Of a stretch of DNA of 64,000 nucleotides, positions 13,357 to 54,921 are shown in pieces. A program made the position numbers and the translations under genes. The first letter of the stretch is position 1. The number at the start of each line of letters is the position of its first letter. Where the stretch lies: contig NZ_ABCG01000003.1 in the NCBI RefSeq assembly GCF_000181515.1, forward strand, positions 124,001 to 188,000, written 5' to 3'. Under the pieces are notes generated by a model that was not told where the DNA came from, did no database searches, and worked only from the letters and a program-made list of their open reading frames with translations. The DNA is from Erythrobacter sp. SD-21 (lineage in GTDB: Bacteria > Pseudomonadota > Alphaproteobacteria > Sphingomonadales > Sphingomonadaceae).

Positions 13357-14946
13357 TCAGGCGGCTTCGGCGATATCCTCGACCGGTTCGGTGCGGATCA
13401 GATAGTCGAAGGCGGAGAGGCCGGCCTTGGAGCCTTCGCCCATCGCCACCACGATCTGCTTGTAGGGCACGTCGGTCACGTCGCCCGCGCCGAATACGCC
13501 GGGCAGGTTGGTACGGCCTTCCTCGTCGGTGACAATCTCGCCGAACCTGGTCAGTTCGAGACCGCTGCCCTCGAGCCATTCGGTGTTGGGCACCAGGCCG
13601 ATCTGGACGAAAACGCCTTCCAGGTCGATGCGGCGCTCATCGCCCGATGTGCGATCCTTCAGCACGAGGCCGTCGACCTTTCCGTCCGTGCCGGTGATTT
13701 CGGTAGTCTGGCCGCTGGTGACGATTTCGACATTGCTCATGCTCCGCAGCTTTTTCTGGAGCACGTCGTCGGCGCGAAGCCTGTCGTCATATTCGATCAA
13801 CGTCACATGGCCGACGATCTTGGCAAGGTCGATCGCGGCCTCGACACCCGAATTGCCGCCGCCGATCACTGCGATGCGCTTGCCCTTGAACAGCGGGCCG
13901 TCGCAGTGCGGGCAATAGGCCACGCCCTTGTTGCGATATTCCGCCTCGCCCGGAACGCCGAGGTTGCGCCAGCGCGCACCCGTCGCAAGGATAAGGCTGC
14001 GGGCCTTGAGGCTTGCGCCATTGCCCAGCTCGACTGTGTGCAGGCCGCCTTCTTCCTTAGCCGGAACGAGCTTCACGGCTTTGGCGAGGTTCATCAGGTC
14101 GATTTCGTTCTCGCCGACCTGGCTTTCGAGCTGGCCAGCCAGTTTCGGGCCTTCGGTATAGGCGGTGCCGGGCAGGTTCTCGATGCCGAGCGTGTCGTGC
14201 AGCTGTCCGCCGAAGCGTTCGGCCGCGATGCCGGTGCTAAAGCCCTTGCGCGCGGTGTAGATGCCGGACGCCGCACCTGCCGGTCCGCCACCAACGATAA
14301 GCACCTCGAAGGGCTCCTTGGCCGACAGTTTCTCGGCCGCCTTGGCGTCCGCTCCGGTGTCGATCTTGGCGAGGATCTCGGCCAGTTCCATCTTGCCGTT
14401 GTAGAAGGGCTCGCCGTTGAGGAAGGTTGCGGGCACGGCCATGACGTCGCGCTTTTCGACCTCTTCCTGATAGGTGCCGCCCTCGATAAGCGTCGCGGTG
14501 ATGCGCGGATTCTCCAGCGCCATCAGCGTCAGCGCCTGCACCACATCGGGGCAGTTGTGGCAGGAAAGCGAGAAATACATTTCGAAATGGAAATCGCCTT
14601 CGATCCCGCGAACCTGTTCGAGGAGGTCGGCGTCGACCTTGGGCGGATGGCCGCCGGCCCACAACAGGGCGAGCACCAGCGAAGTGAACTCGTGGCCCAT
14701 CGGCAGGCCGGCAAACCGGATCCATTTTTCCGCATCGCTCGCGCGGCGGATGACGAAGCTGGGCTTGCGTTCGTCGGTGCCGTCGAAGCTGGCGCTGACC
14801 ATCTCGTGCAGCGCGGCAATTTCCTCGAGCAGTTCACGCGTTTGCCGCGATTTGTCGTCATCGCCCAGCGAGGCGACGAGTTCGACCGGCTCACGCAGGT
14901 TCGTGAGGTAGGTCTTGAGCTGCTGGGTAAGGTTCGCATCGAGCAT
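13357..14946 (-). CDS. ahpF: Alkyl hydroperoxide reductase subunit F
   Basis: A 529-residue flavoprotein that passes electrons from NAD(P)H to AhpC. The N-terminal thioredoxin-like module carries Cys129 and Cys132 (CHNCP). The FAD-binding motif [14 protein letters not shown] is near residue 215, the redox-active CPHCDG near 350 and the nucleotide-binding [12 protein letters not shown] just after. It lies downstream of ahpC on the same strand, but a strong hairpin between them should reduce read-through. Confidence 0.96.
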
Positions 14947-44686: not shown

Positions 44687-45016
44687 CCCGGACAGGGTGA
44701 GGCGCAGCGCCTCCCCGACCGAAGCGCGGGCGCCGTTCCTTTCCAGGGAGCGTCGCCCGTTTTCGATTCCCGTCGTAAGCGAATCGGGTGGGCAGCTATC
44801 CCCGGGTCGTTAACAGTTTAGGGCCCCGCAATTCCCTGTTAACCATAATTCGACGTAATACCGTGAAATAACATGTGATTTTTCGCATTTTTCGGGAAAT
44901 ACGTAGTCCCTCGTTAACGTTTGGAGGCCATAACCCAGCGTGACGAAATCCATGGTTGGGGGCCATTCATGGTGCGCATGTGCCGGCCCCTGCCTTTTAC
45001 GGACGGGAAGACGCAG
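44687..45016. other. Intergenic region between the first two RTX genes
   Basis: 330 bases with no gene I can support. The first part holds an imperfect hairpin that probably terminates the broken RTX gene. The second part (about 44815-44925) is AT-rich with several TTAAC words, and likely contains the promoter of the serralysin-like gene. A TTG at 44921 opens the frame earlier but lacks coding character. Confidence 0.5.
44727..44763 (+). terminator. Probable intrinsic terminator after the broken RTX gene
   Basis: An imperfect GC-rich stem: CGGGCG at 44727-44732 pairs with CGCCCG at 44754-44759, extended inward past one mismatch. TTTT follows. Position about 40 bases past the stop is suitable. 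Confidence 0.5.
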
Positions 45017-47899
<2,883 letters not shown>

Positions 47900-48989: not shown

Positions 48990-52810
<3,821 letters not shown>

Positions 52811-52826
52811 AGAGCGCTAGGGTATG

Positions 52827-52848
52827 GGGGGAGTCGGAGCGCTCCCCC
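52827..52848 (+). terminator. Possible terminator hairpin after thiC
   Basis: A perfect seven-bp stem (52827-52833 with 52842-52848) with an eight-base loop, but no T-run. Weak evidence for intrinsic termination. Confidence 0.3.
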
Positions 52849-52874
52849 GGAGCGCGGAGACGTGCAAAGCATAA

Positions 52875-52932
52875 ATGAGCGAGGTGTACCGGGAGAAAGG
52901 CGAGAAGTTGTAGTTGCCGGAGGGGTACGGCT
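52875..52932 (+). pseudogene. Divergent remnant of a thiC 3' end
   Basis: Reading from 52875: MSEVYREKGEKL, stop, LPEG. This matches the thiC tail [17 protein letters not shown] residue for residue in most positions, with a TAG where thiC has TAT. Codons differ often, so it is not a recent copy of the local gene. It looks like the tail of a donor thiC brought in with the adjacent AT-rich gene. Confidence 0.7.
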
Positions 52933-52936
52933 TCTC

Positions 52937-52948
52937 GCCCACGTGGGC
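52937..52948. promoter_or_regulatory. 12-bp palindrome before the AT-rich orphan gene
   Basis: GCCCACGTGGGC is a perfect palindrome 21 bases before the start codon of the next gene, and TTGATCAA (52951-52958) follows. Possible operator, or chance. Confidence 0.25.
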
Positions 52949-52969
52949 TATTGATCAATCGAGGTGAGA

Positions 52970-54022
52970 ATGACGGTCTGTATTGGCATATCTCCTGATG
53001 CCTTTTGTATGCCTTTGCTGGTAACGGACACGCAAGTGACTAGTGAACACGGATCGCTCTTCGAGCAATTGCCGGGACGCAACGAACTCAAAGGTTGTCG
53101 CAAGTTTCTCGCTCGCAAAACAGAAATCATCAATGACGTTGCGGCAGTTGCTTGCGCAGGTCGAGTCACAGCCATCGCAGACTTCTTACAATACGCAGAT
53201 GTATTGGTTGGCGATGGGACCGGCGAAAGACCTCTAAGGGGCCTTTCTGAACGTGCGGGAGGCTATCCGAAGGGGCACCTTAACGCGATCGCATATCTAC
53301 CTAGAGTGCGTGAATGTGGCGCAGTCGAACTAGCATTCTTCAAGCCATTATCGATAGAACTAAGTGAATCAGACCTCTTTGGTAAAGTGGCGGCGATTGG
53401 CTCTGGATCAGCTGAGGCACTAAACCTTATTGAAGAATTGGCTCAAAACCATGAGAACATTTACGCTGAAAAGACTGGAAAATCCCTAGTTGCTCACCAC
53501 GTGTTCTTAGTAGATCAGCTAAATATGTTGGTTCTTGGCGAAGAGATATGGGTTAAGTTTGATGAGTTCGATGAAAACCGGCAGTCTTGGGGCGGTTTTC
53601 TTGAGTACACATATTTTGACATTCATGTCAAAAAGTGGAGAAGGCAGCCGCGAACAATCTATCTATTCTATCAACTCGATTTTGAGACCGAATATCGGCA
53701 CTCTGGCACCCCAAATCTAATAGACCGTTTGTACTTTTACGACCCCGGCGGTTCAAATGGGCGACTACTTGCTATTAGCTCGAGCCAAACTCGAGGGGTC
53801 TACGAAAACGAGTACATCTTCAAAAGCTTGTTGGCTAAAGATGATCTGCGCGAGTTTGATTGGACTGCGTGGCAGCCAGAGAAAGTGTGCGTGTTGGTCA
53901 ATGGCTTGTTGGAACGCGAGGGTAAATCGGAAGTTGTTTACCGTTATTCCGGCACCTACGCTTGCGATCAAGACAATGGTGTAACGATTTATCCAAGAGG
54001 AGGGGACAGGGCGCTATGGTAA
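52970..54022 (+). CDS. Orphan protein with proteasome/HslV-like Ntn-hydrolase N-terminal domain
   Basis: A 350-residue protein in DNA clearly AT-richer than its surroundings. Residues 2-175 resemble HslV and proteasome beta subunits. Thr2 would be N-terminal after Met removal (MTVCIGIS); Asp20 (LLVTDTQVT) fits the conserved Asp17; Lys45 in CRKFLARK fits Lys33; then NDVAAVACAG matches the strand-Gly turn, and AAIGSGSAEALNLIEELA matches the HslV AIGSG helix. Residues ~180-350 are an extension I do not recognise. No signal peptide or membrane helix. Good GAGG five bases upstream. Inference from eye alignment only; it could be an inactive homologue. Confidence 0.6.
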   Translation: MTVCIGISPDAFCMPLLVTDTQVTSEHGSLFEQLPGRNELKGCRKFLARKTEIINDVAAVACAGRVTAIADFLQYADVLVGDGTGERPLRGLSERAGGYPKGHLNAIAYLPRVRECGAVELAFFKPLSIELSESDLFGKVAAIGSGSAEALNLIEELAQNHENIYAEKTGKSLVAHHVFLVDQLNMLVLGEEIWVKFDEFDENRQSWGGFLEYTYFDIHVKKWRRQPRTIYLFYQLDFETEYRHSGTPNLIDRLYFYDPGGSNGRLLAISSSQTRGVYENEYIFKSLLAKDDLREFDWTAWQPEKVCVLVNGLLEREGKSEVVYRYSGTYACDQDNGVTIYPRGGDRALW

Positions 54023-54098
54023 TTCGAACCTTTTGGCCCATCTTTCGATAAACTTATGTATGACATGCTTTCAAGAGTTTGAGATACCTTGAAAAATA

Positions 54099-54268
54099 TC
54101 ATCGTTTCGCCGGAACCAGCTTCTCCACCAGCGCCCTGAGTTCGCTCGGCGTGGTGTGGCCGGCGACGATCTCGTGATAGCCGATGCCCGCCTCGCGCGC
54201 TTTTCGACCTATCGCTGCGCTGCTTGAGGACGGGCTTCCTTCTTCACCGCATCGCGCGAGGCGGCGCT
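54099..54268 (-). pseudogene. Divergent, frameshifted remnant of a DUF2726 gene tail
   Basis: On the minus strand it reads SAASRDAVKKEA, then 41 bases in place of the nine in the intact gene, with a stop and frame change, then AGIGYHEIVAGHTTPSELRA and LVEKLVPAKR, stop. The neighbouring intact gene has SAAARDAVKKEALRKAGIGY and HEVVAGHTTPSEVRALVEKL. Many silent differences mean it is not a recent duplication. It borders the AT-rich orphan gene on its right. Confidence 0.75.
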
Positions 54269-54273
54269 ATGGC

Positions 54274-54921
54274 TCAGCTTGCCTTGCGACCGAACTGCGC
54301 GACAGGACCAGTGCCAGCTCCTGCCGGAACCAGCTTCTCAACAAGAGCCCGCACTTCGCTTGGCGTGGTGTGGCCCGCGACGACTTCGTGATAGCCAATA
54401 CCAGCCTTGCGCAGCGCCTCTTTCTTTACGGCATCGCGTGCGGCGGCGCTGCCCTGATGGTGGCCTGTGCCTTGATATTCGATAGCGTGAACCACGCGGC
54501 AGTTTTCGTCCATCAGGGCGAAATCGACGCGTTTGGAATTGACGCACCCATAGGCATTGCGGTCGGGTGAGGAAAGAAATTCGCCCAGCGACACTTGCGC
54601 CATCACCTGCCAACGCGGATTACGACCGATCACCGCATCGTCAAGCGCTTTGAAAACAGAGGCTTCCGGCCGATTGAGCAGCGGGCGCGGCTTGAAGTCG
54701 GCAGCCATGACGATTTCGAGCTGGTTCGCAGCACTCGAAAGCTTGGAGTTATCGGCTCCCCCGCCTTTGCGGTTGTAGCGGCGATTGTTGTTTTTGCGCC
54801 TGCGGTTGCTGTTCTTCTTTCCGGCCTTGCTCCATTCGACAACAAGAAAGACGACAAGGGCCATGAGTCCGATCATGACGACCTGACTGGTCATTGCACC
54901 TTTGAATAGAGTCTCGAACAC
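54274..54921 (-). CDS. DUF2726 family protein, membrane-anchored
   Basis: A 215-residue protein with one N-terminal transmembrane helix (residues ~12-29), a very basic Asn/Arg/Lys linker (33-53) and a DUF2726 domain (about 75-190). The domain has RVDFALMDENCRVVHAIEYQ, with Asp133, Glu148 and Gln150 spaced as in PD-(D/E)xK nuclease-like folds, followed by HHQGSAAARDAVKKEALRKA. Nuclease activity is not shown for this family. A damaged second copy of its 3' end lies immediately downstream. Confidence 0.85.
   Translation of the reverse strand: MFETLFKGAMTSQVVMIGLMALVVFLVVEWSKAGKKNSNRRRKNNNRRYNRKGGGADNSKLSSAANQLEIVMAADFKPRPLLNRPEASVFKALDDAVIGRNPRWQVMAQVSLGEFLSSPDRNAYGCVNSKRVDFALMDENCRVVHAIEYQGTGHHQGSAAARDAVKKEALRKAGIGYHEVVAGHTTPSEVRALVEKLVPAGAGTGPVAQFGRKAS

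Follow-up and report, generated by a model that had tools for sequence, protein, structure and literature searches.

The open reading frame at 52970-54022 on the forward strand of the window, a 64,000-nucleotide stretch of Erythrobacter sp. SD-21 DNA, is well supported as a stand-alone cargo gene of a compact defence hotspot located directly behind thiC. Our best explanation for this gene, which we regard as an evenly balanced proposition, is that its product is hotspot cargo that most likely acts against phages by a mechanism centred on its second residue, Thr2. The defence role is inferred from location: because related bacteria often fill the same slot with different anti-phage genes, the candidate is probably an undescribed defence protein.

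The gene and its relatives

The coding region and its probable translation signal are as follows.

52970..54022, forward strand: proteasome-like candidate gene, an open frame of 350 aa with an ATG start
52961..52964, forward strand: GAGG, a likely ribosome-binding site 5 bases before the ATG

A GTG at 52964 is also listed as a possible start, but the ATG is the likelier one because the GTG overlaps the GAGG site. The gene is compositionally foreign, as the first-pass annotation had claimed when calling it AT-rich. Its GC content is 0.479 (48%) and its GC3 is 0.47. In a comparison set of 53 further window ORFs the mean GC3 is 0.79, a value that is biased upwards because the set was picked greedily with a GC3 of at least 0.65 demanded, although the contrast is still real. 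The same annotation had placed the gene outside any protease operon and beside a DUF2726 gene, and both observations stand: the hslVU genes and the Anbu gene of this genome are found on other contigs, and the next gene encodes a DUF2726 protein. Its description of the gene as an orphan was nearly right, except that two relatives exist in the genomes searched.

Collections of known families offered little to classify the protein. No Pfam family and no PADLOC family matches it at E<=1, which leaves it without a known anti-phage defence model. In NCBIfam the candidate had one irrelevant match (E 0.25), and neither relative had any at 0.01. PHROGs gave one match (0.075), and the PDB produced a single chance match with the protein by itself (E 1.3) and another with the family profile (E 1.4). 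When the same genome was searched with PF00227 at E<=1, the model recovered HslV, Anbu, and one sub-threshold stretch, and did not reach the candidate gene.

Identity to the window protein is 35% and 30% for the two full-length relatives. One is encoded by an uncultured Sphingomonas MAG (G206, CAJYJW010000338.1; locus L002, identical to L004) and the other by a second genome of the window's genus (G870, locus L003), and the three members are spread over two genera. The L003 protein starts with a GTG at 1498 behind GAGGAGG and begins MTACMYLSP. Among the genomes that could be searched, the family is rare. Searches with the single protein found it in 2/298 genomes of the taxonomic family (this genome included) and 1/385 genomes of the class (this genome only). 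A two-sequence profile (A1) found it in 2/396 genomes of the order, and a three-sequence profile (A2) gave genuine matches in 2/60 genomes of the genus, this genome included, and in 2/298 of the family, with 1/398 in the phylum, again this genome only. Weak A2 matches in G949, G155, and G186 (E 0.01-0.08) were taken as chance and dropped before counting; by eye, the matches in regions L079 and L080 fall within a glycosyltransferase-like ORF and within a frame opposite a receptor-like ORF, and the G949 match contains an internal stop. Of two scans of genome contigs, one found no relatives and the other returned only L004, on the same contig as the G206 member.

The plasmids, phages, and viral contigs searched contained no further member. 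This result bears on the idea that the protein is phage-derived, for which there is precedent in the PPH and AAH proteasome homologues reported to occur in phages (Fuchs et al. 2021; PMC8665760). We find this origin scarcely credible, given that neither 50,697 phage records nor three pattern-based IMG/VR scans produced a match to the family, and that no phage genes are seen by eye around the three loci.

The slot behind thiC

In this genome the slot is delimited by the following features.

50741..52810, forward strand: thiC, the left border (NCBIfam NF006763 ThiC, 1034.7 bits)
52875..52926, forward strand: relic of the 3' end of a foreign thiC (stop codon in frame), with 40/52 positions identical to the corresponding end of the Sphingomonas MAG gene
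54108..54249, reverse strand: relic of the 3' end of a DUF2726 gene, with 130/142 positions identical to what follows the G870 member and 76/90 to the host's DUF2726
54274..54921, reverse strand: DUF2726 gene, the right border in this genome (PF10881, E 3e-23)

The true start of thiC may lie further in, because residues 1-68 of the listed ORF fall outside the profile match. All three family genes reside directly downstream of thiC in the same orientation, with 159, 52, and 20 bases in between. At each locus the gene stands alone with no second cargo gene seen, and neither hslU nor a conserved ATPase partner is present in the three loci read. Such a consistent position could mean that the protein is a functional partner of ThiC in thiamine synthesis. 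This seems very improbable to us, since a thiC match occurs in 56/60 genomes of the genus and the gene in only two of these 60, and since unrelated defence-like genes hold the same place elsewhere.

To characterize these other occupants, 40 regions behind thiC were taken from 40 genomes (15 of the 56 thiC-matching genomes were left out), and ORFs were listed for 38 of them. Thirty regions were scanned. Of the rest, L059 is truncated, L054 holds a family member (the one seen in L003), seven (L040, L045, L051, L068, and L070-L072) have no obvious cargo, and L036 has an ORF that does not adjoin thiC and was left unscanned. The scanned set comprises 40 proteins picked by eye after reading the ORFs. 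Most of them come first among the variable ORFs behind thiC; in at least L037, L052, L058, and L060, thiC and the pick are separated by another ORF. Shorter cargo may be missed because the length cut-offs of the ORF lists ranged from 90 to 165 aa.

At E<=1e-15, 18/40 cargo proteins from 16 of the 40 regions match a PADLOC model, compared to 1/53 of the other window ORFs, this one by a generic 2OG oxygenase model (Fisher test, p = 2e-7). At E<=1e-3 the cargo count rises to 24/40, from 20 regions, and the control to at most 9/53, as nine PADLOC families matched one member each (p = 2e-5 against this upper bound). Both enrichments are possibly inflated, as the cargo was chosen by eye. The control is one window rather than matched positions, and the PADLOC families include mere candidates (PDC) and generic ones (methyltransferase, Fic). 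The strong matches are listed here by region.

L038, type II methyltransferase; L039, PDC-S05; L047, caspase; L048 and L074, SoFic
L049, Orf5/HEC-06; L050, PDC-S19; L052, PDC-M41A/B; L053 and L067, dCTPase (a model that we take to represent AvcD-type deaminases)
L056, retron RT type VI; L058, AbiU; L061, Drt6; L063, dGTPase; L064, PDC-M34A/B; L069, PDC-S24

A core gene adjoins the slot, and other genomes carry diverse defence genes at the same place. It is therefore well supported that the slot behind thiC (window 50741-54921, L035-L074) is a compact defence hotspot of the genus. This evidence strengthens the suggestion, made in the first-pass annotation, that the protein could be a defence factor. 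Of the two kinds of neighbour mentioned there as worth seeking beside homologues, defence genes do fill the same slot in other genomes, whereas no conserved ATPase was seen and the gene is alone at 3/3 loci.

Further defence candidates can be sought in this same compact slot, where 16/40 cargo proteins lack a PADLOC match at 1e-3. A Pfam scan of 10 cargo proteins left 6 without a match at 1e-3. DUF4062, DO-GTPase2, and DUF3800 were recognized in three cargo proteins that have no PADLOC match, and the L046 protein has a sub-cut-off HATPase match. Several cargo proteins, from L039 (435 aa), L042 (421 aa), L057 (298 aa), and L073 (275 aa), have no match at 1e-3 in either PADLOC or Pfam. Region L055 (134-1602) carries a two-gene cargo, by eye a 312-aa DGQHR-domain-like protein and a 177-aa HEPN-like one; neither has a PADLOC match, and the 312-aa protein has no Pfam match.

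An alternative that retains the proteasome-like nature of the protein is that it has a housekeeping or stress role, such as quality control or peptide processing, and simply landed in the hotspot. Part of the hotspot cargo lacks a defence match, and the survey of new proteasome homologues reports no genomic context suggestive of function for them (PMC8665760). We nevertheless judge this explanation rather unlikely, because the gene is present in so few genomes of the genus, because this genome already has HslVU and Anbu, and because all three members found share the same slot.

The borders of the slot also carry information on how the gene arrived. DUF2726-like ORFs, identified by eye, with a Pfam test on the window copy only, lie beside the slot in 11/38 listed regions with various cargo; we therefore rejected DUF2726 as a partner, and it probably is none. 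The in-frame stop shows that the segment at 52875-52926 is a relic. Its local alignment score was reached by 0/2000 shuffles for the MAG thiC, whereas the host thiC (311/2000) and the G870 thiC (1232/2000) match it no better than chance, in a test that is after the fact because the likeness was first noticed by eye. The relics flanking the gene suggest that it was imported, and the cassette apparently brought along fragments of the donor's border genes, presumably by recombination through those genes. No integrase is seen by eye in the window slot. A DUF2726 3'-end relic also lies behind the G870 family member (L003 2739-2880), and the ORFs listed for the 3.9 kb that L003 spans include no intact DUF2726. 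Upstream of thiC, by eye, the window encodes two long proteins with RTX-type repeats (44921-47899 and 48990-50636); the N-terminal part of the former looks protease-like, and a TetR-like ORF separates the two.

A putative proteasome-like domain and a private C-terminal part

The division of the protein and the residues of its putative active site are given below; the boundary between the two parts was chosen by us, and the single residues and the GSG triplet are invariant in all three members.

52970..53584, forward strand: N-terminal part, residues 1-205, proposed proteasome-like Ntn domain (invariant residues in A2; order of elements as in HslV and Anbu)
52973-52975, forward strand: Thr2
53027-53029, forward strand: Asp20
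53117-53119, forward strand: Lys50
53159-53161, forward strand: Gly64
53399-53407, forward strand: Gly144-Ser145-Gly146
53585..54019, forward strand: C-terminal part, residues 206-350, without known family (no Pfam or PADLOC match, no relevant NCBIfam match)

Across the three members, 53/350 columns are invariant, and all of the residues named above are among them. The elements follow one another as an MT strand, a second strand ending in DT, the lysine, a strand ending in AG, two helices, strands, an IGSG or TGSG motif, and a helix, with the secondary structure assigned by eye and from low-confidence models. This order matches that of HslV and Anbu from this and other genomes, and Thr2 has no preceding propeptide, as in Anbu. 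The motifs pointed out in the first-pass annotation (MTVCIGIS, Asp20, NDVAAVACAG, and AIGSGSAEAL) are all present as written. Its choice of Lys45 as the catalytic lysine is not tenable, however, as this position is K/T/T in the three members; Lys50, which is K/K/K, takes its place.

In the proteasome, the triad Thr1/Asp17/Lys33 and Gly47 imply a lysine-glycine distance of 14 (PMC8665760). The corresponding distance from Lys50 to Gly64 is 14 in the window protein, 14 in L004, and 13 in L003. Other distances fit more poorly: the threonine and aspartate are 18, 18, and 24 residues apart rather than 16, and the aspartate and lysine 30, 29, or more apart (30, 35, and 40 in each row's own numbering), again versus 16. 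These distances are too long, and proteasome equivalence would require insertions. By motif and spacing, then, Thr2/Asp20/Lys50 fits a proteasome-type Thr/Asp/Lys centre, and the protein has the putative threonine nucleophile and the Asp17-, Lys33-, and Gly47-equivalents that are among the marks of a proteasome-like protein in the structural sense.

Profile comparisons are suggestive in the same direction. We built an HslV profile from 17/30 loci and an Anbu profile from 19/20 regions, with some others dropped for frame or strand trouble. Using hhalign, the family scored 25.6 with the 17 HslV sequences and 20.0 with the 19 Anbu sequences, compared to 18.1 for HslV against Anbu, which are true homologues, in the same setting; the whole-protein Anbu match falls in the C-terminal half, where the catalytic residues are unaligned. 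For the N-terminal part, the score with HslV (24.79) was reached by 0/299 valid column shuffles and that with Anbu (20.55) by 3/299. Such scores are not unique among real proteins. With the HslV profile, one of the 53 other window ORFs scored 25.56, above the 25.26 of the window protein alone, whereas with Anbu the window protein, at 21.13, ranked above all of them (the runner-up had 20.59). Taken by itself, the L003 protein gave a background-level score. The ORF that exceeded the window protein on the HslV profile lies at 13360-14946 on the reverse strand and encodes 529 aa.

These scores, together with the unusable AlphaFold models, whose mean pLDDT is 35 for the full length and 30 for residues 1-205 with an input of only two sequences, could also be read to mean that the protein is defence cargo of a different fold whose HslV-like motifs arose by chance. 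We consider this unlikely, since Thr2, Asp20, Lys50, Gly64, and the GSG triplet are invariant and in the right order, even though few columns are invariant overall, and since the N-terminal scores lie above all or nearly all shuffles. A proteasome-like fold is what we expect with good, though not full, confidence. The Ntn-hydrolase reading of the first-pass annotation is accordingly supported by the conserved residues and the order of elements, and the fold itself is a prediction from these features.

The C-terminal part has its own invariant residues (WGG 207-209, W223, PG 259-260, FDW 296-298, W301, and PE 303-304), and so far appears to be private to the family. If the proteasome-like reading is correct, removal of Met1 would free Thr2 as the N-terminal nucleophile, Lys50 and Asp20 would set it up, and Gly64 would sit in the oxyanion hole. 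In this scheme, the C-terminal domain may recognize a phage protein or one altered by infection and deliver it to the N-terminal domain, which would cleave, or otherwise act on, an amide bond and so stop the infection. Anti-phage action by Thr2 catalysis is plausible in this light. More tentatively, the protein could be a lone proteasome-like Ntn peptidase (or ligase) that works with no ATPase, so that a single gene would make up the whole anti-phage system, with sensing done by a C-terminal domain of its own. Such a system would provide a first function, in immunity, for many lone bacterial proteasome homologues. The recurrence of a distant proteasome-like protein, alone, in a defence slot suggests a function that is direct and testable.

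Comparison with known systems

The candidate resembles HslV in having an N-terminal Thr, an Asp, a Lys, an AG turn, and an AIGSGG motif with a helix-like stretch behind it, all in the same order. Unlike HslV, it has no adjoining hslU (the hslVU genes of its genome being elsewhere), an Asp20-to-Lys50 spacing longer by about 14 residues, an extra C-terminal part of about 145 residues, and no Pfam match. With Anbu it shares a direct MT start without a propeptide (MTYC in most Anbu rows), a D(T/S) after the second strand, and the AG turn. Anbu differs in having no AIGSG motif and a shorter ORF (265 aa versus 350), and in this genome it is a separate gene on another contig.

Beyond these well-known proteins, 22 new proteasome-like prokaryotic families have been described (Fuchs et al. 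2021; PMC8665760), among whose proteasome homologues RPC, DAH, DGH, FC4, and connectase have additional C-terminal domains. The candidate is like these, by description only, in combining a predicted proteasome core with an extra C-terminal domain, and RPC is confined to proteobacteria. It is unlike them in that the article reports no informative context for them, whereas the candidate family resides in a defence hotspot. Proteasome homologues with no assigned function have been described already. Judged by titles and the starts of abstracts, the matches listed from the open-access literature include neither a proteasome homologue in phage defence nor a thiC hotspot or sphingomonad defence hotspot.

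The slot itself has parallels in hotspot 37 of E. coli (PMC10121019) and in the core defence hotspots of P. aeruginosa (PMC10250203), which are likewise reported to have fixed core-gene borders and diverse defence cargo; the E. coli hotspot is also alike in often having no detectable mobile element. As a whole word, thiC is absent from the main text of PMC10121019. What sets the present slot apart from both is its position behind thiC in Sphingomonadaceae and its cargo, which by eye mostly consists of one or two genes.
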